This document shows, in pieces, positions 3,436 through 42,302 of a DNA stretch of 52,643 nt. The first letter of the stretch is position 1. Each line of letters opens with the position of its first letter. Location of the stretch: positions 1 through 52,643 of the forward strand of contig JAQBNK010000107.1 of the NCBI GenBank assembly GCA_028288595.1. The letters are read 5' to 3'. Below the pieces are notes generated by a model that was not told the origin of the DNA, searched no databases, and worked only from the letters and a program-made list of their open reading frames with translations. The DNA is from Chitinophagaceae bacterium. GTDB lineage: Bacteria; Bacteroidota; Bacteroidia; Chitinophagales; Chitinophagaceae. The position numbers were made by a program, and so were the translations under genes.

Positions 3436-5439
3436 ATGCAGGGAACGGCAAACATTTCAAGGCAAACTATATCAACCATATCTTCACTACATTCACCTAT
3501 GCGTCAACTTGCTGCAATAATGTTTTCCGATATGACTGGTTATACAGCCCTGATGCAACAAAACGAACAATTAGCAAAACAAAAGCATCGAAGGCTGAAG
3601 GAAGTTTTGGAATCCTGCGTTTCAAATCACCATGGCAAAATTCTTCAATACTATGGCGATGGCGCCTTAAGCATTTTTAGCAGCGCTATTGATGGCGTTC
3701 ATTGTGCGGTGGAAATACAACAAGCATTACAACAGGAACCCATAGTGGATCTGCGAATAGGCATTCATACCGGGGATATCTCAATAGAAAATGAAACGAT
3801 TTATGGCGATGGCGTTAACCTTGCCTCAAGGATTGAATCCCTTGCTGTTCCGGGTTCGGTTTTTATTTCCGAAAAGGTGTTTGATGAAATAAGAAACCAG
3901 GAGAATCTTACAGCCCGCGAAATGGGCTACTTTGAATTAAAGAATGTAAATGAGCCCGTCCGCATCTTTGCTATAGATAACAAAGGCCTTGTGGTTCCAA
4001 CACGTGATTCAATAAAAGGAAAAACCAAACAGCCTTCTAATCGCCTTGCTGTTTTGCCTTTTGTAAACATGAGTGCCGATCCTGAAAACGAATACTTCAG
4101 TGATGGGATAACAGAAGAATTATTGAATGTACTTACGAAAGTAGAGGGCCTCCGGGTAACATCAAGAACCTCGGCCTTTACTTTTAAAGGAAAGGATATT
4201 GATATACGTGAAATTGGTATACAGCTCAACGTAGATAGAATCCTGGAAGGCAGTGTACGTAAAGCTGGAAACCGGGTACGCATTTCGGCGCAATTGATTA
4301 ATGCAGCCGATGGATACCATATCTGGAGTGAAAACTACGATAGAAACCTTACTGACATATTTGAAGTGCAGGATGAGATCAGCAGTATTATAGCGAATAA
4401 GCTTCGCGAGAATCTGACTCTGGACGAATATGCAGAAAGACTTGTAAAAGTACCCACTCAAAATATTGAGGCATATACACTTTTTTTGAAAGGCATGCAT
4501 TTTCATAATAAGCTTACTCCGAAGAATACTAAAAAAGCGATAGAATGTTTTGAAAAAGCAATAACCCTTGAACCGGATTATGCCCAGGCTTACGCCATGG
4601 CTGCAACAGGTTATGCCTCTCTTGGCGCAACAGGGCAAATGCAACCGGCAGAAGCTTTTGAGATTGTGCATAGGTACAGCGATAAAGCAATAAAACTTGA
4701 CAGTTCACAGGCAACAGGATATTCAGCAAAGGGTGCGGCGTATTTGCTTTACGACTGGAAATGGAAACAGGCTTACGAATCTTTAATAAAAGCGGTAGAA
4801 CTTAATCCTGCTAAAACGGAAGCCCATCAGTTGCTTTCTTTATATTATCTAAGCACACGCCGAAAGCAGGATGCAGTTGAAATAATGGAAAAAGCATTGG
4901 AGGTAGATCCGATATCACCCATCGTCAACCAGTACGTAGCAGATGCTTACCTTAATGCAGGCAGAGTTGAAGATGCATTAAAACAAGTTGAACGCATATT
5001 AGACCTGTATCCAAATATGCGTATAGCCATGGAGTTAAAAGGCTGGTGCCTGGGGATAAAAGGAGATTGGAATAAGGCGCTTGAAATATTTGAAGAAATC
5101 CATGGGATGATAAAAAATCCATTAAAAGGGTTGGCGCCATTAGGATATGCATATGCTCAGTTAGGAGAATCCGAAAAGGCATTAGAATGCATTCGTAAGA
5201 TAGAGCAACGGCAAATTGAAGAACCGGAAACAGTGTTAGATATTGACTTAGCTATGATCTGGTGGTCATTAGGAGAAAAAGACAAAGCGTTTGATCATCT
5301 GTTTCAATGTATTGATAAAAAGATGGGTGTTGTAGCTATTCTTATTGATCACCCTATGTTTAAGGAGGCAGGGAATGACCCAAGGTATCAATTATTAAAA
5401 CAGAAGCTGAATCTGGTTGAATACAATTCTAATGGATAA
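3436..5439 (+). CDS. class III nucleotide cyclase domain - TolB-like domain - TPR protein
   Basis: A 667-residue, apparently cytoplasmic signalling protein. Residues 22-180 form a class III cyclase homology domain: FSDMTGYTAL (first metal Asp), QYYGDGALSIF (second Asp) and GDGVNLASRIES (catalytic Asn and Arg). Residues about 205-330 match the TolB-N/FlgO-like region found in such proteins (LAVLPFVNMSADPENEYFSDG, then DEISSIIANKL). The rest is a run of TPR repeats from about 345, for example AIECFEKAITLEPDYAQAYA. The same order is widespread in rhizobial cyclase-TPR proteins. The Lys that reads adenine in many cyclases is Gln here (IL-Q-YYGD). A start at 3499 (MRQLAAIMFSDM) is equally plausible because the cyclase domain begins there. 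Confidence 0.85.
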   Translation: MQGTANISRQTISTISSLHSPMRQLAAIMFSDMTGYTALMQQNEQLAKQKHRRLKEVLESCVSNHHGKILQYYGDGALSIFSSAIDGVHCAVEIQQALQQEPIVDLRIGIHTGDISIENETIYGDGVNLASRIESLAVPGSVFISEKVFDEIRNQENLTAREMGYFELKNVNEPVRIFAIDNKGLVVPTRDSIKGKTKQPSNRLAVLPFVNMSADPENEYFSDGITEELLNVLTKVEGLRVTSRTSAFTFKGKDIDIREIGIQLNVDRILEGSVRKAGNRVRISAQLINAADGYHIWSENYDRNLTDIFEVQDEISSIIANKLRENLTLDEYAERLVKVPTQNIEAYTLFLKGMHFHNKLTPKNTKKAIECFEKAITLEPDYAQAYAMAATGYASLGATGQMQPAEAFEIVHRYSDKAIKLDSSQATGYSAKGAAYLLYDWKWKQAYESLIKAVELNPAKTEAHQLLSLYYLSTRRKQDAVEIMEKALEVDPISPIVNQYVADAYLNAGRVEDALKQVERILDLYPNMRIAMELKGWCLGIKGDWNKALEIFEEIHGMIKNPLKGLAPLGYAYAQLGESEKALECIRKIEQRQIEEPETVLDIDLAMIWWSLGEKDKAFDHLFQCIDKKMGVVAILIDHPMFKEAGNDPRYQLLKQKLNLVEYNSNG

Positions 5440-33933: not shown

Positions 33934-36900
33934 GTGCCCAAAGATGAGAACAACCCCGAGCAGCTTTTAGCTGAACTTCACCAGCGTACAGAAGAACTCG
34001 CTGTAATTAATGCGATACAGGAAGGAGTTGCCCAGCACAGGGATATCCAATTCATTTATAACCTTGTGGGCGATAAGATACAACAGCTATTTAATGCACA
34101 AATTGTTCTTATAGCCACTTTCGACCTGGTTAAAGAAGAAGAAAACTTTACCTATTTTTTTGAAGACGGGCGCAAAGTCATGCCCGAAGCAAGATCAATC
34201 AGTAAGCTAAGGCGTCGGTTAATAAATGAAAGGCGCACTATTTATATCGAGACAGAAGATAGCGCCATTAATGAATATGAAATAACAGCTATTGACGATA
34301 CAGAGATGCCTAAGTCGCTGTTATTTGTACCGCTTGTATCAGATTCTACGGCCGGTGGTTATATCAGTTTGCAATCCTTAGACAAAGAGCATGCTTATTC
34401 AGGTTCAGATATCACTTTCCTGGAAACACTCTCTAATAGTATGGCTGTCGCTTTAGAGAACGCCCGGCTCTTTGATGATACAAGCAGGTTACTAAAAGAA
34501 ACAGAACAAACGAAAGCTGAACTGGCTGTTATAAACAGCGTGCAGGAAGGGCTGGTAAGAGAAATGAGCATAGAAGGTATTTACACATTGGTGGGAAATC
34601 GAATTCGCGAACTTTTTAATGCCCAGGCTGTGCTGATCGCCACATTCGACCACGAAAAAAAACTCGAATATTTCAATTATCACATAGAGAAGGGTGAAAT
34701 GTCCCGTCCCGAGCCGAGGCCATTTGATAAGGTGAGACAGCACTTAATTCAAACAGGCCAGAATATCCTGATCAACGAAAACTTTGTAAAAGCTGCAGCA
34801 GAATTCGGAATGAAAGTGTTGCCGGGAACTAAAGCTCCCAAGTCACTTTTATTCATGCCCATGAAAGCGGGCGATAAAGTAACGGGTTATGTAAGCCTTC
34901 AGAACATTGACCAGGAACATGCGTTTTCCTTTTCAGATGTGCGGCTATTAAGCACTCTCGCTAATAGTATGAGTGTGGCTTTACAAAATGCAAAATTGTT
35001 TGATGAAACAAACAGGTTATTAAAAGAAACGGAGCAGCAAAAAGGAGAATTGGCAGTAATTAACAGTGTGCAGGAAGGGCTGGCAAAAGCACTGGACATG
35101 CAGACGATCTATGATCTCGTTGGTAATAGGATACGTGATCTTTTTGATGCACAGGTGGTCGGCATCGCTACGTTTGATTATGCAACCGATACAGAGCACA
35201 TTCATTATCTCATAGAAAAAGGGGAACGTTATTATCCTGCACCAAGACCACTGAATACTTTAAGAAAACATCTTATTGAAACCAAAGAAAAAGTGGTAAT
35301 CAATAAAAACTTCGAAACAGTTTCAGCAGCTTTTGGAATGAAAAAAATCCCGGGAACTGAACAACCAAAGTCTGCATTATATGTTCCCCTGGTGATTGGT
35401 GAAAAAGTAACAGGTTATGCGAGTTTACAAAACGTAGATAAAGAAGAGGCTTTTAGTGAATCGGATATAAGATTGCTGGAGACGCTGGCTAATACAATGG
35501 GTGTTGCATTGGAAAATGCAAGGCTCTTTGATGAAACAACAAGACTGCTGAAAGAAACGGAGCAGCAGAAAGCGGAGCTGGGTGTTATTAACAGCGTACA
35601 GGAAGGACTTGCCAAAGAGCTGGACATGCAAGCTATTTATGATCTTGTTGGCGGGCGGATACAGGAACTGTTTAACGCACAGGCAGTGATGATCGTAACC
35701 TTCGACCACGAAACGGCGACAGAACATTTTAAATATCTTATTGAAGATGGCCAGCGGTTCTATCTTACAGCACGTCCTTACGACAAACTTCGCCAGCACC
35801 TGATCATCACAAAACAAAGAATTGTCATCAACTCAAATTATGAAGAAGCATATGCGAAGTTTGGATTAAAAACTTTGCCGGGTACCAACCCCACAAAATC
35901 CGGTGTATTCGTTCCATTGATCATTGGTGATAAAGTGAACAGTTATATCAGTTTGCAAAACATGGAAATTGAAAATGCTTTCAGCGAATCTGATGTGCGT
36001 CTTTTAGAAACACTTGCAAACAGCATGAGCGTTGCATTAGAAAATGCACGCCTCTTCGATGAAACAAACCGTTTGTTGAAAGAAACAGAACAGCGCACAG
36101 CGGAATTAGCGGTAATTAATAGTGTGCAGGAAGGTCTTGCCCGTGAGTTGGATATGAAAGCTATTTACGACCTGGTTGGCGATCGTTTATGCAATTTATT
36201 TCCTGATACGCATGCTTTGGTGATTCGCACTTTCGACCACGAAAATGGAATCGAACATTTTCAATACGCCATTGAAAAAGAGACCCGCCTTTCCATTGAT
36301 CCACGCCCTATACTTTGGGCTAATAAACAATTAATAGCAAATAAGAAAGCCCTATACATCAATGAAAATTTTGTTGAAACATCGAAAAAATATGGTGGCA
36401 CAGGCGTTACTAAAGGAGCCCCGCCAAAATGCGGTGTTTTTGTGCCCATGATCGTTGGAGATATTGTAAAAGGTTCAATCAGTCTTCAAAATGTTGACGG
36501 GGAAAATGCTTTTTCTGAATCCGACATACGTTTGCTTACTACAGTCACTAACAGTATGAGTGTTGCCTTGGAAAATGCACGACTCTTTGATGAAACAAAT
36601 CGCTTGTTGAAAGAAACCGAACAACGTACTGCTGAATTAGCTGTGATCAATAGTGTGCAGGAAGGTTTGGCAAAAGAACTGGATATGCAGGGCATTTATA
36701 ATTTGGTTGGCGACAGGGTGCAGAGCCTTTTTCACACACACGCAGCAGTAATTGCCACTTTCGATCTTGAAAATAAGCTGGAACATTTCAATTATGTATT
36801 TGAAAATGGAAAAAGATATATCCTTGATGCAAGGCCTATTAATAGTTTACGTCAACTTCTTATTGACAAAAAGCAAACTATTTATATAGATTCTGAAGAA

Positions 36901-39900
36901 AAGGCAAAGAATGAATATGGAATTACGGCAATTGGAGATACTAAGATGCCTAAGTCTTTAATGTTTGTTCCTCTCCTCAGCGGGAGCAACATCAAAGGTT
37001 ATGTTAGTATTCAGAATGTTGATAAAGAAAAAGCTTTTAATGAATCTGATATCAGGTTGCTTGAAACGCTTGCCAACAGCATGAGTGTCGCATTGGAAAA
37101 TGCACGACTATTTGATGAAACAACACGATTACTTAAAGAAACAGAGCAACGCACAGCAGAATTGGCAGTGATCAATAGTGTGCAGGAAGGATTGGTTCGT
37201 GAAATGGATATGAAAGCCATATATGAATTAGTTGGTGATAAACTTTGCAAATTATTTCCAGATACCCAAACTTTAGTGATCCGCACATTTGATTATGAAT
37301 CAGGTACTGAGCATTGGCAGTATGCTATCGAAAAAGGCGAGCGCCAATATGTTTCACCCCGATCTTTTAACTGGAACAGTCAATTATTAATAAAGACAAA
37401 AAAACCACTTGATATTAGAAAAGACTATGTGGCTGTATCCAAAAAACATGGAGGTACAGGAGTAACTGCAGGTCAACCACCAAAGTCTGCCGTATTTGTG
37501 CCAATGCTGGTTGGTGATGTAGTAAAAGGAACTGTAAGCTTGCAGAATGTAGATAAGGAGAATGCATTCTCAGATTCCGATCTCAGGCTGCTTACTACAA
37601 TTACAAACAGTATGAGTGTTGCATTAGAAAATGCACGGCTCTTTGATGAAACAAATCGCTTATTGAAAGAGACAGAACAACGCACCGCCGAATTAGCAGT
37701 GATCAATAGTGTTCAGGAAGGACTCGTTCGTGAAATAGATATGCAGGCAATATATGAAACAGTGGGTGAACGGCTTTGTGATTTGTTCAACATTCAAACA
37801 GTTGTCATAAGAACATTTGATCATGATGGTGGAATTGAAAACTGGCGCTATGCAAAAGAAAAAGGTGAACGTCAGCAAGTAAAACCTCGTCCATTTAATT
37901 GGAACAGTCACCTTCTTATTAAAACACAAAAACCTTTGATCATTAATGTAGATTATGTGGAGACGGCAAAGAAACATGGCAGCGCAGGTGTTACTGCAGG
38001 ACAAGCTCCTAAATCAGCCGTGTTTGTCCCGATGGTCGTTGGTGATGTGGTAAAAGGATCAGTGAGTTTGCAGAATGTAGATATTGAAAATGCATTCAGT
38101 GATTCAGACATACGGTTGCTTACCACGCTTACAAACAGCATGAGTGTTGCATTAGAGAATGCACGTCTGTTTGATGAGACAACACATCTGCTTGCAGAAG
38201 CAAAACAAAGAGCTACAGAGCTCACAACGGTAAATACAATCAGCAAAGCACTTGCATCACAGTTAAATGCAGATGAGTTGATCCAGTTTATCGGAGATCA
38301 GATGAAGGATCTTTTTAAGGCTAACATCGTTTACCTGGCCATTCTGAACAAGAAAACACAAATGATCGATTTCCCTTACCAGCATGGCGATGATACTGCC
38401 AGTTCTTCCATAAAATTGGGAGAGGGGCTTACTTCAAAAATAATTTTAACTGGTGAGCCTTTACTGGTGAATAACGATCTGCAGGAATTGCGGGCAAGGC
38501 TGGGCGTTCAGCAAATGGGTAAAGCGGCCGCATCGTATCTTGGAGTACCCATTCCTGTCGGTGACGAAATTATCGGGGTGCTGAGTGTTCAAAGCACAGA
38601 ACATGAAAACAGGTTTAATGAAAGCGATCTTCGGCTGTTATCAACTATCGCTGCATCTGTGGGCGTCGCGTTAAACAACGCCACTTTATTTGAAGATGTT
38701 AAGCAGGCAAAGATGGAAGCAGAATCTGCAAGTAAGGCTGCGGAAAAAGCGAATGATGCAAAGAGCGCTTTCCTTTCAACTGTGAGTCATGAATTAAGAA
38801 CACCGCTCACTTCTGTCCTTGGTTTCGCAAAGATCATCCGTAAACGGCTCGAAGAGAAAATATTCCCAGCAGTAATCGCGGATGCGAAAACACAAAAGAC
38901 CATCAAACAAATTTCAGAAAATTTGCAGGTGGTTATTTCCGAAGGCGAGCGCCTTACGCATTTGATCAATGATGTGCTGGACCTCGCTAAAATAGAAGCG
39001 GGAAAAATGGAATGGAACCTGGACACTGTGTCTATGCAGGAAGTAGCAGAACGTGCGCTCTCTGCAGCATCAGGTTTGTTCGATCAGAAAACATTGAAGC
39101 TGGTGAAAGAGATAGAATCAAATCTTCCTGCGATCTCAGGCGACCAGGATAAACTGATCCAGGTAATTCTTAACCTCATTTCAAACGCAGTAAAGTTCAC
39201 TGATAAAGGAACCGTTACGTGCCGCGCATTCCGCCAGAAAGATGAAGTTATTGTTAGCATCAAAGACACTGGAATCGGTATTGCGCCGGAAGATTTTAAT
39301 GCCGTCTTCGAACAATTTAAACAGGTAGGTGGCGATACTTTAACGGATAAACCGAAAGGCACCGGGCTTGGTCTGCCAATATGTAAAGAGATCATTGAAC
39401 ATCACGGCGGCCGTATCTGGCTGGTGAGTGAAGCAGGGAAAGGAAGCACTTTCTCTTTTGCTTTGCCCCTTCTGAATGTGGCACCTTTAAAACCACTTCA
39501 TCTTGATGATCTCGTTAAACAATTGAAAGTGCAGATGGCGCATTCAACATTTATCATCGAAGGAAAAGATCCGGTAATATTAGTCGTGGACGACGATGAC
39601 GCAATACGCTCCCTGCTAAAACAGGAACTGACAGAAGCTGGCTATTTAGTGGAAGAAGCGGCAAATGGCAAACAGGCGCTGCAATGCATCCGCAATAATA
39701 AACCCGATCTCGTAATACTGGATGTAATGATGCCGGAGATGAATGGGTTTGATGTGGCCGCCATTTTAAAGAATGATCCTGACACAATGGATATTCCCAT
39801 TATTGTTTTATCTATCATCCAGGATAAAACAAGAGGCTTCCGTGTAGGCGTTGACCGCTACCTGACAAAACCAATAGATACTGCAAAACTATTTTCAGAA

Positions 39901-40170
39901 GTAGGCAGTTTGCTGGAGCAGGGTAAGTCGAGAAAAAAAGTAATGGTGGTTGATGAAGACGCTACCGCGGTTACTTCTTTATCTGATGTTTTGCAGGCAC
40001 GCGGTTACCTGGTAATAGAATCAAACGGAAAACAATTTATAGAGAGCGCAGTTTCTGCGCAACCAGACATCATCATTTTAAATTCTTTGTATTCAGGACG
40101 GGAAGAAGCAGTAAAATCTTTGCGCTTTGAAAAAGGAATGGAGAATGTGTTGTTCTTAATTTATGAATAG
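33934..40170 (+). CDS. giant hybrid histidine kinase with nine GAF domains and two receiver domains
   Basis: A 2078-residue protein with no membrane segment or signal peptide; start GTG 33934 (PKDENNPEQLLAELHQR). Nine GAF domains begin near residues 20, 195, 371, 547, 723, 900, 1075, 1252 and 1428. The first eight share the linker LLKETEQRTAELAVINSVQ and repeat every 175-177 residues; the ninth is divergent. Then come HisKA with His1619 (STVSHELRTPL), HATPase_c with N-box LNLISNAVKF, G1 DTGIGIAP and G2 GTGLGLPICK, a complete receiver with Asp1930 (VILDVMMPEMNG, LTKP), and a shortened terminal receiver in which the phosphoacceptor is Asn2050 (IIILNSLYSG). It probably senses small cytoplasmic ligands or redox state and feeds the response regulator 51 bases downstream. 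Confidence 0.92.
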   Translation: MPKDENNPEQLLAELHQRTEELAVINAIQEGVAQHRDIQFIYNLVGDKIQQLFNAQIVLIATFDLVKEEENFTYFFEDGRKVMPEARSISKLRRRLINERRTIYIETEDSAINEYEITAIDDTEMPKSLLFVPLVSDSTAGGYISLQSLDKEHAYSGSDITFLETLSNSMAVALENARLFDDTSRLLKETEQTKAELAVINSVQEGLVREMSIEGIYTLVGNRIRELFNAQAVLIATFDHEKKLEYFNYHIEKGEMSRPEPRPFDKVRQHLIQTGQNILINENFVKAAAEFGMKVLPGTKAPKSLLFMPMKAGDKVTGYVSLQNIDQEHAFSFSDVRLLSTLANSMSVALQNAKLFDETNRLLKETEQQKGELAVINSVQEGLAKALDMQTIYDLVGNRIRDLFDAQVVGIATFDYATDTEHIHYLIEKGERYYPAPRPLNTLRKHLIETKEKVVINKNFETVSAAFGMKKIPGTEQPKSALYVPLVIGEKVTGYASLQNVDKEEAFSESDIRLLETLANTMGVALENARLFDETTRLLKETEQQKAELGVINSVQEGLAKELDMQAIYDLVGGRIQELFNAQAVMIVTFDHETATEHFKYLIEDGQRFYLTARPYDKLRQHLIITKQRIVINSNYEEAYAKFGLKTLPGTNPTKSGVFVPLIIGDKVNSYISLQNMEIENAFSESDVRLLETLANSMSVALENARLFDETNRLLKETEQRTAELAVINSVQEGLARELDMKAIYDLVGDRLCNLFPDTHALVIRTFDHENGIEHFQYAIEKETRLSIDPRPILWANKQLIANKKALYINENFVETSKKYGGTGVTKGAPPKCGVFVPMIVGDIVKGSISLQNVDGENAFSESDIRLLTTVTNSMSVALENARLFDETNRLLKETEQRTAELAVINSVQEGLAKELDMQGIYNLVGDRVQSLFHTHAAVIATFDLENKLEHFNYVFENGKRYILDARPINSLRQLLIDKKQTIYIDSEEKAKNEYGITAIGDTKMPKSLMFVPLLSGSNIKGYVSIQNVDKEKAFNESDIRLLETLANSMSVALENARLFDETTRLLKETEQRTAELAVINSVQEGLVREMDMKAIYELVGDKLCKLFPDTQTLVIRTFDYESGTEHWQYAIEKGERQYVSPRSFNWNSQLLIKTKKPLDIRKDYVAVSKKHGGTGVTAGQPPKSAVFVPMLVGDVVKGTVSLQNVDKENAFSDSDLRLLTTITNSMSVALENARLFDETNRLLKETEQRTAELAVINSVQEGLVREIDMQAIYETVGERLCDLFNIQTVVIRTFDHDGGIENWRYAKEKGERQQVKPRPFNWNSHLLIKTQKPLIINVDYVETAKKHGSAGVTAGQAPKSAVFVPMVVGDVVKGSVSLQNVDIENAFSDSDIRLLTTLTNSMSVALENARLFDETTHLLAEAKQRATELTTVNTISKALASQLNADELIQFIGDQMKDLFKANIVYLAILNKKTQMIDFPYQHGDDTASSSIKLGEGLTSKIILTGEPLLVNNDLQELRARLGVQQMGKAAASYLGVPIPVGDEIIGVLSVQSTEHENRFNESDLRLLSTIAASVGVALNNATLFEDVKQAKMEAESASKAAEKANDAKSAFLSTVSHELRTPLTSVLGFAKIIRKRLEEKIFPAVIADAKTQKTIKQISENLQVVISEGERLTHLINDVLDLAKIEAGKMEWNLDTVSMQEVAERALSAASGLFDQKTLKLVKEIESNLPAISGDQDKLIQVILNLISNAVKFTDKGTVTCRAFRQKDEVIVSIKDTGIGIAPEDFNAVFEQFKQVGGDTLTDKPKGTGLGLPICKEIIEHHGGRIWLVSEAGKGSTFSFALPLLNVAPLKPLHLDDLVKQLKVQMAHSTFIIEGKDPVILVVDDDDAIRSLLKQELTEAGYLVEEAANGKQALQCIRNNKPDLVILDVMMPEMNGFDVAAILKNDPDTMDIPIIVLSIIQDKTRGFRVGVDRYLTKPIDTAKLFSEVGSLLEQGKSRKKVMVVDEDATAVTSLSDVLQARGYLVIESNGKQFIESAVSAQPDIIILNSLYSGREEAVKSLRFEKGMENVLFLIYE

Positions 40171-40221: not shown

Positions 40222-40599
40222 ATGCAACAAAAATTATTAATAGTAGACGATGAGCCGCACATCAGAATGCTGATAGAGCAAACACTGGAAGAACTGGAAG
40301 ACGATGGCGTTGATTTTTTTACTGCCGAGAACGGCGAGGAAGCGCTTAAAATAATACAGGCTGAAAATCCCCGGCTTGTTTTTCTCGATGTGATGATGCC
40401 GAAAATGAATGGCATGGAAGTATGCCGCAGGGTAAAAAAAGAATTATTACTGGATAACGTTTTTATCGTTTTGCTTACAGCAAAAGGGCAGGAACTCGAC
40501 AGGCTGAAAGGACAGGAGGTGGGTGCAGATCTGTACATGACAAAACCTTTCGATCCTGAAGTAATACTTGCTAAAGCAAAAGAAGTACTTGGACTATAA
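40222..40599 (+). CDS. single-domain CheY-like response regulator
   Basis: A 125-residue receiver with no output domain. All key residues are present: acidic pair in LLIVDDEPHIR, phosphoacceptor in LVFLDVMMPKMNG, Thr in VLLTAKGQ and Lys in YMTKPFDP. It lies 51 bases after the nine-GAF kinase and 27 bases before the GAF-cyclase gene, in the same direction, so it is the obvious phosphate acceptor for that kinase. It would act through protein contacts, perhaps on the cyclase. The length is standard for CheY/Spo0F-type proteins. Confidence 0.92.
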   Translation: MQQKLLIVDDEPHIRMLIEQTLEELEDDGVDFFTAENGEEALKIIQAENPRLVFLDVMMPKMNGMEVCRRVKKELLLDNVFIVLLTAKGQELDRLKGQEVGADLYMTKPFDPEVILAKAKEVLGL

Positions 40600-40625
40600 C
40601 ACTTACACTAAATTCATTTTTGAGA

Positions 40626-42302
40626 ATGGCGAGGATCAGCTTAAAGAATATACTTGGGAAAAAGAATGATACTGCGGCAATTTTTCTTTCGCTGATAGCA
40701 GCCTTGCCGGGGAACACCTGGATAGAAGATGATAAGGGTCAGCCAGTTTTAGGATCATCGTCTGAAACATGCCATGAAATTATGGAGATAAAGCATGAAG
40801 AAGAACTCCTGGGTTTTGTAAAAGGGGATGTGTCCGCTGTGCCGATTGCGGCGTTACTTAACCAGTTGTTAGAAAAAGAAGCAGAAAAAAAGAAATTAGG
40901 CGCAGAAATATTGAACCTCTACCAGGAGATCAATATGATCTTTAATTTCTCTGATAAGCTGGCACAGTCCATAGACGCGTTCGCTATAGCAGAGGTTACG
41001 CTTTCCCAGGCAAGACATATTATTCAATCCAATGCAGGTGTAGTTTTATTATTGGATGAAGACACCGGTGGCTTGCAGGTAGCCGCTGTTTCAGGAGAAC
41101 CATTGCTCAATGAAAAGAACATTCACCGCATTTTTTCAGTTATGCAATCACTCCTGGTAAACGGTCAGTCTGAAATTATTACCAACACAGTTCTATTAAA
41201 AGAAGCCGGCATCATTTCCGCCACTGTGCAATCTGTTATTTGCGCGGCGTTAAAAGTGAAACAAAATGTAACCGGCGCGGTGATCCTGTTTACAAACGAA
41301 TCGGTTTCTTATACAGCGGGTCATCTTAAAATATTAACTACGCTGGCACTTCAATCCTCGGCCGCCATTGAAAGCGCTTTATTGTACGAGAAAAATATAA
41401 AAGCAGCAAACGACAGGGAAGAGGCCATTCGTTGCATCTATGAAGTGACGTCGAAATTTGTTCCTTATGAATTTATCGATGCGCTGGGTCATAAAATAAT
41501 AACGGATGTGAAATTGGGCGACCAGGTGGAAAAAGTAGTCACCGTTCTTTTCTCTGATATGAGGGGGTACACGACGCTTTCTGAAGGCATGTCGCCAGCG
41601 GAAAATTTCAAGTTCGTTTGTTCTTTCAATGAGCGGATGGGGCCCATTATTCGTAAATACAATGGCTTTATCAATCAATATCTTGGCGATGCAATCATGG
41701 CCATTTTCCCGGGCAAAGCGGAAGATGCTTTATCTGCTGCCGTAGCGATGCAGAAAGATGTTCGTGAGTTTAATAAACTTCGTCTTGCCAATAACCAGCT
41801 TCCCATACGCATAGGTGTAGGCATGCACACGGGCCCGCTCATTATGGGTATCACCGGCGATCAGTCTAGAATGGATGCCACCACTATTGCAGATACAGTT
41901 AACACCGCATCCAGGCTGGAGAGTCTTACTAACTATTATAAAGGCGATATCATTATCAGCCAGGCAACATTCAGCCAGCTTCCTTCCGGCACATTTCACA
42001 CGAGACCCTTAGCATCGGTGCAGTTAAAAGGTAAAAATGAACCCGTTCTTATACATGAATGTTTCAGCGGGTTTAGTGAAGAAGAAGTAGAAAAGAAAAG
42101 CATTACGTTATACAGTTTTAACCAGGGCATCACCAGTTATGTTTCAAGTTCGTTCCACGAAGCAGCAACCGCTTTTCAGCAGGTGCTGCAAACAAATCCC
42201 GCGGACCAAACCGCTGATTTCTTTCTCCAGAAAATAAATGATTTTCTCGATAAAGGCGCACCGCTAAACTGGTCCGGTGTAGAAGAAATGCACACTAAAT
42301 AA
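40626..42302 (+). CDS. GAF-domain class III adenylate/guanylate cyclase
   Basis: The ATG at 40626 gives 558 residues; a TTG at 40620 would add two. A unique N-terminal region of about 90 residues is followed by a coiled segment (LLEKEAEKKKLGAEILNLYQ), a GAF domain at about 115-255, and a cyclase domain at about 295-475. Catalytic features are VTVLFSDMRGYTTL and INQYLGDAIMAIF (metal Asp residues) and DTVNTASRLES (Asn, Arg). The usual adenine-reading Lys is Gln in NQYLGD. A C-terminal tail of about 85 residues looks like a partial TPR (YSFNQGITSY, AAAFQQVLQ-like). As the third gene after the kinase and response regulator it is the likely output. Product cAMP versus cGMP is undecided. Confidence 0.88.
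   Translation: MARISLKNILGKKNDTAAIFLSLIAALPGNTWIEDDKGQPVLGSSSETCHEIMEIKHEEELLGFVKGDVSAVPIAALLNQLLEKEAEKKKLGAEILNLYQEINMIFNFSDKLAQSIDAFAIAEVTLSQARHIIQSNAGVVLLLDEDTGGLQVAAVSGEPLLNEKNIHRIFSVMQSLLVNGQSEIITNTVLLKEAGIISATVQSVICAALKVKQNVTGAVILFTNESVSYTAGHLKILTTLALQSSAAIESALLYEKNIKAANDREEAIRCIYEVTSKFVPYEFIDALGHKIITDVKLGDQVEKVVTVLFSDMRGYTTLSEGMSPAENFKFVCSFNERMGPIIRKYNGFINQYLGDAIMAIFPGKAEDALSAAVAMQKDVREFNKLRLANNQLPIRIGVGMHTGPLIMGITGDQSRMDATTIADTVNTASRLESLTNYYKGDIIISQATFSQLPSGTFHTRPLASVQLKGKNEPVLIHECFSGFSEEEVEKKSITLYSFNQGITSYVSSSFHEAATAFQQVLQTNPADQTADFFLQKINDFLDKGAPLNWSGVEEMHTK

Follow-up and report, generated by a model that had tools for sequence, protein, structure and literature searches.

The GAF array discussed here belongs to a hybrid histidine kinase of a Chitinophagaceae bacterium (Bacteroidota), encoded on a stretch of 52,643 nucleotides (contig JAQBNK010000107.1 of assembly GCA_028288595.1, positions 1 to 52,643; hereafter the window), in which nine GAF domains precede the kinase on a single polypeptide. 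The best reading of a comparison with related kinases is that this array did not arise by tandem amplification in recent times: old cassette lineages appear to have been gained, lost and reordered between relatives. As far as the sequences tell, a conserved set of kinase, receiver and cyclase is combined with a GAF array that is variable in number, kind and order, while the last GAF is fixed and the linkers are conserved. On balance, we consider it probable that the protein is a hybrid kinase with multiple inputs, its sensory cassettes being arranged along a helical spine on which they have been gained, lost and reordered.

Relationships among the cassettes

The kinase and its parts are listed below; each variable repeat is given with its class or lineage and, for R2 to R7, the closest cassette elsewhere (loci of relatives carry L numbers).

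33934-40170, forward strand: multi-GAF hybrid histidine kinase, 2078 amino acids, GTG start, reading frame open throughout
33985-34509, forward strand: GAF repeat 1 (R1), class A
34510-35037, forward strand: GAF repeat 2 (R2), lineage B1; closest L017_2, 88.7%
35038-35565, forward strand: GAF repeat 3 (R3), lineage B2; closest L017_3, 92.0%
35566-36093, forward strand: GAF repeat 4 (R4), lineage B3; closest L010_3, 91.5%
36094-36624, forward strand: GAF repeat 5 (R5), class C; closest L054_3, 79.1%
36625-37149, forward strand: GAF repeat 6 (R6), class A; closest L010b_3, 83.4%
37150-37680, forward strand: GAF repeat 7 (R7), class C; closest L056_1, 84.3%
37681-38208, forward strand: GAF repeat 8 (R8), class C; terminal linker of the type typical of the family before the last GAF (AEAKQ, not KETEQ)
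38209-38742, forward strand: GAF repeat 9 (R9), class D, the invariant kinase-proximal GAF
38758-39003, forward strand: HisKA (DHp), amino acids 1609-1690, by Pfam; H-box SHELRTP, phospho-acceptor His 1619
39139-39471, forward strand: HATPase_c, amino acids 1736-1846, by Pfam; N, G1 and G2 boxes present
39577-39900, forward strand: receiver (Response_reg), amino acids 1882-1989, by Pfam; phospho-acceptor Asp 1930 in LVILDVMMP
39904-40167, forward strand: C-terminal tail, truncated-receiver-like by eye, with Asn in place of Asp; kept in relatives

Relatives were taken from a repeat scan of one genome per species, which gave 190 confirmed stretches, the best 80 of them representing 74 distinct loci. 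The 33 frames that reach at least 350 bits against the window kinase are treated as orthologous kinases, and 32 of them carry repeats. For the FastTree analysis these 32 were joined by eight cut or split frames added by hand (the first frame of L010, L011, L012, L014, L019, L022, L041 and L068), giving 40 frames and, with repeats retained at 115 or more matched model positions, 229 rows.

Only 7 of the 193 cassettes in these 40 open reading frames have their closest copy within their own protein (four of the 197 non-D cassettes lack a second copy to compare and are left aside), and in the window kinase it is none of the eight, R8 being tied at 77.3% inside and outside. R2, R3 and R4 are 88.7, 92.0 and 91.5% identical to a cassette of another species, versus at most 67% to any copy in their own protein, and the gap between outside and inside identity is about 23-25 points for R2, R3, R4 and R6, in a comparison in which the many outside arrays have more chances to provide a match. 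The original prediction, made from the DNA of the window itself, had read the order of repeat types as a sign of duplicated multi-domain blocks; as a recent event, such duplication is not supported by these values. Adjacent cassettes even have different closest species: R3 groups with L017 (100/97*) and R4 with L010 (97/90*). The 91.5% identity of R4 to L010_3 also compares with 73% for the D-GAF, kinase and receiver part of the same pair.

The same elements recur in differing order in the three arrays of the window (A-B1-B2-B3-C-A-C-C-D), of L017 (C-B1-B2-B3-f-A-G-C-D) and of L010 (B-B2-B3-B-B1-e-f-f-E-C and, past a stop, C-B2-A-C-D). Among array pairs with at least two reciprocal-best cassettes at 75% identity or more, 24 of 97 show a conflict of order, and 39 of 290 cassette pairs are inverted (L010 is counted as one array, and L012 and L045, read from their contig names as two ends of one array in a single assembly, are omitted). 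Conflicts persist without L010 (20 of 78 array pairs) and at higher identity (4 of 27 at 80%, 2 of 10 at 85%). Because they affect a minority of array pairs, the order appears to be mostly kept and sometimes changed. The duplications themselves are evidently old, since the cores of R1-R8 share identical synonymous codons about as often as codon usage predicts (0.413, with 0.409 expected).

Repeat number and classes

The presence of nine GAF domains in one kinase, as originally predicted, is confirmed by Pfam GAF_2, which matches nine stretches (E 5.9e-105; all pass E 0.01). The motif codons lie where they had been placed, with the period of 525-531 bases: eight are GAA (Glu), and the ninth, at 38245, is AAA (Lys), so that its description as degenerate was correct. 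R1 to R8 measure 175, 176, 176, 176, 177, 175, 177 and 176 amino acids, and R9 was trimmed at 178 by our own choice.

The earlier grouping into classes A (R1, R6), B (R2, R3, R4) and C (R5, R7, R8) stands for A and C, by identity as well as in the tree. Protein identity is 60.6% between R1 and R6, 61-67% among R2, R3 and R4 and 67-77% among R5, R7 and R8; R9 is 25-30% identical to the other repeats. In the nine-repeat tree class A is supported at 81/98 (unstarred) and class C at 96/99*. R2, R3 and R4 come together in 34% of bootstrap trees (approximately unbiased (AU) test, p 0.33), and their clade is rejected once relatives are included (AU p 0.00018, on a tree with a long-branch warning for the two outgroup rows). 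Class B is thus, on these trees, a resemblance and not a clade, and of the FGMK motif ascribed to its three copies R4 has the variant FGLK. A local triplication of the B copies, undecided from the nine repeats alone, is ruled out by the AU test with relatives.

With relatives included, R6 falls within a starred set of four rows (99/97*) that excludes R1, although neither a clade of R1 and R6 (AU p 0.096) nor one of R5, R7 and R8 (AU p 0.088) is formally rejected. R7 and R8 are joined by FastTree (0.749) and not by the maximum-likelihood class-C tree (AU p 0.385), in which R8 is a member of a starred 25-row set (98/98). In one set of input rows the A1 first row begins eight residues early, and in another the L029 row (1 of 20) is about one repeat overlong, both in frame.

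Linkers and cores

The repeats are far more uniform in their helices than in their cores: mean pairwise identity among R1-R8 is 0.74 in the first 20 linker columns and 0.81 in the C-terminal helix, versus 0.47 in the cores. Class-diagnostic columns kept across species number 83 of 177, of which 71 lie among the 121 core and 12 among the 56 linker positions. At the linker end that precedes the last GAF, position 176 is Lys in 30 of 32 cases, the exceptions L016_8 and L120_1 being of unclassified type, compared with 3 of 165 linkers elsewhere, of which 157 have Glu. Within class A, all four penultimate copies read AETKQ or AEAKQ and all 16 inner copies KETEQ or KETEE. Since the linker end follows array position and not core class, core and linker appear to be separable units. 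Once the final repeat had been removed from every array, cut ones included, 24 arrays retained at least four repeats, and in all 24 of them the linkers show a greater excess of identical synonymous codons than the cores. A heptad scan of one linker was uninformative.

Array size and distribution

Matches to the repeat profile are uncommon in the sampled genomes: 21 of 395 across the phylum at E 1e-40 (at most eight candidates scored per genome), among which the bacterium studied here is the only one of its family, and 8 of 147 nearer relatives at E 1e-25, its own genome being included in both counts. When 59 genomes were searched with the whole protein at E 1e-60, only the gene itself was returned, a misleading result with seven candidates scored per genome.

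Homologs with differing GAF counts do exist. The same kinase occurs with 2-10 GAFs in one frame, that is, with one to nine variable cassettes and the last GAF. In L010 (3823-13251) 10 and 5 GAFs are found in two same-frame open reading frames split by one stop, which gives 14 variable cassettes across it; the split is either real or an error of the metagenome-assembled genome (MAG), and the L011 frame is also split. Next to kinases that are different or only partly seen, a Verrucomicrobia MAG (L083) has 14 repeats by profile and 14 Pfam GAF_2 stretches, and a Chloroflexota MAG (L080) 12 by profile and 13 by Pfam. Nine, which had seemed exceptional, is therefore not so for this repeat, as arrays of 10 to 15 exist. 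Seven to nine such repeats also stand before histidine kinases unlike that of the window in Melioribacter-, Ignavibacteriales-, Rhodohalobacter-, Christiangramia- and Chlorobiaceae-type proteins (L030, L034, L036, L053, L082), and in the three covered by a Pfam check (L030, L053, L082) no receiver was found.

The part next to the kinase is constant. In none of the 32 repeat-bearing orthologous kinases does the last GAF belong to a variable class, and together the last GAFs form a consensus of their own. From the last GAF through kinase and receiver to the tail, relatives are 69-78% identical to the window, and the two L071 genes 64 and 51%. The second L071 kinase (L071:10602-14054), which adjoins the first, lacks the repeat. 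The tail (39904-40167), conserved in relatives at about 99-121 bits, is a possible pseudo-receiver.

The N-terminal end varies. A long extension precedes the array in 14 of 33 orthologous kinases, nine have none and ten are cut at the start of the available DNA. Two of the long extensions were checked by Pfam as Reg_prop/Y_Y_Y (L054, L071), eleven were inferred from length and one by eye (the second L071 gene); the labels of that gene and of the second L010 frame were set by hand. Long and short forms interleave in the kinase tree, with at least three changes forced by starred branches.

The window kinase has the phospho-accepting His of HisKA, the N, G1 and G2 boxes of the ATPase and the receiver Asp of a hybrid histidine kinase. 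No periplasmic sensor was found in it (membrane helices were judged by eye only), and the protein appears to be cytosolic. Pfam gave no match to a Reg_prop/Y_Y_Y propeller, the mark of the hybrid two-component systems of that type, and listed no DNA-binding domain.

Fold predictions and ligand-binding motifs

R5-R7 were modelled from a triple alignment of 69 sequences (the window plus 68 relatives, drawn from the 85 listed among 124 triples found), with a mean predicted local distance difference test score (pLDDT) of 80, core blocks mostly at 81-95 and a predicted TM-score (pTM) of 0.42. In this model the GAF folds are joined by unbroken helices of 53 residues (142-194 and 317-369), with a mid-helix pLDDT of about 50. 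The model from R8 through R9 to the kinase (pLDDT 70, pTM 0.38) shows GAF, DHp and ATPase folds and is too weak for geometry; GAF folds are thus predicted for R5-R9. The suggestion of a long signal-transmitting rod is in part borne out: a helical, rod-like connection is predicted, whereas the geometry of a rod is not established, given the low pTM, the low mid-linker pLDDT and the poor tandem superpositions described below. The first tandem matches in a Foldseek search with the R5-R7 model were 1ykd, a cyanobacterial cyclase GAF pair, and PDE2/5/6.

The canonical NKFDE motif is given as the mark of cyclic-nucleotide GAFs in PMC11977230. It occurs in none of the nine repeats; R2-R8 retain its N and F...D, lacking the K beside N and the E after D. 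In cyanobacteriochromes and phytochromes the bilin-attaching Cys is typically followed by His. No such Cys-His pair was found in the nine repeats, all of which were checked: R1-R4, R6 and R9 have no Cys, and the Cys of R5, R7 and R8 is not followed by His. That the cassettes differ in specificity, as had been envisaged, is plausible from the class-specific residues of their cores.

Neighbouring genes

Two further genes follow the kinase.

40222-40599, forward strand: stand-alone receiver protein, 125 amino acids, conserved beside the kinase
40620-42302, forward strand: GAF and class III nucleotide cyclase protein, 560 amino acids, TTG start as listed; the conserved third gene

The receiver gene lies 51 bases 3' of the kinase and the GAF-cyclase gene 20 bases 3' of the receiver gene. 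Among kinases with room downstream, the window included, the receiver gene is present in 26 of 29 and the cyclase gene in 23 of 26, the exceptions being the two L071 kinases and L076, and the window fits the family, with an orthologous D-GAF, kinase, receiver and tail followed by both genes. This conserved order is the strongest hint of a cyclic-nucleotide output. Class III cyclases usually have Lys where all 24 cyclases, that of the window and those of relatives, have Gln in the motif GF(I/V)NQYLGD, and the substrate may accordingly be unusual. The window encodes another class III cyclase domain at 3436-5439, there combined with TPR repeats.

Proposed mechanism and alternatives

In the multi-input kinase that we favour, the eight variable cassettes and the fixed GAF next to the kinase would be strung on a nearly invariant helical spine. 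Some or all of the cassette cores would bind small molecules; binding would move the helices of the dimer, and the shift would pass via the fixed GAF into the DHp helices. Phosphate from His 1619 might then reach Asp 1930, the co-encoded receiver protein or both, and that receiver could tune the GAF-cyclase and thereby a cyclic-nucleotide output, as the conserved three-gene order suggests. The route by which cassettes are gained, lost and reordered would probably be recombination within linker helices of near-identical sequence, with the kinase and both genes downstream of it remaining constant. A bolder version is possible, and we hold it tentatively: each heritable cassette type would have a ligand of its own and could be inserted, removed, exchanged or reordered via the linkers, so that every lineage would respond to its own set of signals through an unchanged output machinery. 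If cassettes do carry distinct ligands, the family would be a natural experiment in combinatorial sensing, in which a single kinase with a single output takes from 1 to at least 9 (perhaps 14) variable inputs. It could then be asked how many ligand signals one dimeric helix sums, and sensor cassettes with matched linkers might be interchangeable in biosensors.

Several observations weigh against the multi-input kinase. No cassette has an assigned ligand, and the canonical NKFDE pattern is absent (0 of 9). The class-diagnostic residues are partly circular, the classes having been drawn from a tree of the same sequences, and most of the conflicts in order involve cassettes that are 75-80% identical; hidden paralogy and loss may in part account for these conflicts. 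The relation between linker end and position could likewise reflect selection to fit the last GAF, with no exchange. The 24 arrays of the codon test share ancestry (two are the halves of L010, and L029 and L031 are near-twins), and the synonymous excess in linkers is also seen between proteins (0.072, versus 0.102 within); some of the excess is therefore due to constraint, which leaves no more than the remainder to concerted exchange. As to the structure, pTM is 0.42 for R5-R7 and 0.38 from R8 to the kinase, pLDDT is about 50 in mid-linker, and in a second structural comparison the best-scoring match is a single GAF, 3trc (Z 18.6, 2.4 A), the tandem ones superposing at about 9-11 A root-mean-square deviation. 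The receiver neighbour is missing in 3 of 29 kinases (L076 and the two of L071). A scan of proteins encoded around the kinase gene found no HPt domain, which makes the phosphate route a guess.

Of the alternatives, a mainly mechanical role of the array survives best, although we regard it as rather unlikely: the GAFs would form a long dimeric rod or spacer through which a signal reaches the kinase (in relatives it would start at a periplasmic propeller), and most cassettes would bind no ligand. The helical linkers are indeed the most conserved part and are predicted as continuous helices, and an N-terminal extension stands before the array in 14 of 33 orthologous kinases. The window kinase, however, has no propeller match, and a mere spacer leaves the class-specific core residues kept across species unexplained. 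Furthermore, L118 and L071 are propeller-length forms with a single variable cassette, so that a long array is not needed by propeller forms. If the GAFs do bind nothing, the family would show how far a signal travels through stacked GAFs.

Neutral drift, in which recombination between linkers adds and removes cassettes to no benefit and the kinase tolerates the change, would suit the wide variation of array size on the same kinase and the recombination sites that near-identical linkers offer. We consider it unlikely, because long arrays keep open frames, class-diagnostic residues persist and, from one species to another, cassettes can be more alike than the kinase part is, as for R4 and L010_3, unlike what relaxed constraint would give. 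The argument from open frames is undercut by the stop in L010 and the split frame in L011, unless these are sequencing errors. Somewhat more doubtful still is a feedback array, in which the cassettes would detect the cyclic-nucleotide product of the adjacent cyclase. The conserved operon with a class III cyclase favours it, and the nearest tandem folds include cyclic-nucleotide GAFs, but fold likeness shows no ligand and the canonical NKFDE motif is lacking throughout.

An assembly artefact, with fewer repeats in the true gene, has next to no chance of being correct: repeats do seem to break the assemblies of relatives, 17 of 40 array reading frames running off contig ends (all 17 at ends), yet R1-R8 differ pairwise by 27-49% in DNA (identity 51-73%), exact internal repeats reach 23 bases at most, no 31-mer is shared between repeats, and B1-B2-B3 recur in the same order in the separate assembly of L017. 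On DNA divergence and exact-repeat length the artefact is rejected.

Comparison with known systems

A close parallel to the multi-input kinase is found in multi-GAF cyanobacteriochromes such as PtxD, in which a row of differently tuned GAF sensors on one polypeptide serves one output. PtxD of Nostoc punctiforme has seven GAFs, at least six of them binding bilin, according to PMC5812497 and PMC6696110, and seven is the highest count of a functional GAF array that we found in the literature searched. Unlike PtxD, the window kinase has no Cys-His pair, has more GAFs, belongs to a kinase and cyclase operon and carries cassette lineages shuffled between species.

CyaB2 (1ykd) and the GAF-A/B pairs of mammalian PDE2/5/6 share with the window kinase tandem GAFs joined by long helices; in contrast to it, they have two GAFs only, which are of the cyclic-nucleotide type, and their own chain also carries the output domain, a cyclase or a phosphodiesterase. 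Chain 2vzw, which we take to be a DosS-type GAF, gave a weak sequence match (E 0.00039). DosS and DosT likewise place tandem GAFs before a histidine kinase, but have two of them, with haem in the first (for DosT, PMC8534201).

Bacteroidota hybrid two-component systems with Reg_prop/Y_Y_Y have the same N-terminal sensor as two checked relatives (L054, L071), whereas the window kinase has neither the propeller sensor nor a Pfam DNA-binding domain. Poly-HAMP kinases resemble it in the long row of one signalling domain within a hybrid kinase, although HAMP relays signals and is as a rule not a ligand sensor. One of them is encoded in the same genome (L121:2581-9345), a hybrid kinase of 2255 amino acids with 12-13 HAMP domains, one GAF and three receivers. 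In one open-access collection, searched with fixed terms for arrays of many GAFs, for shuffling within them and for an operon of this make-up, no description of this family came up, which is not proof of absence in print. Multi-GAF kinases as such are already known, and the reshuffled array on a conserved cyclase pathway, free of photoreceptor marks, is a variant of them.

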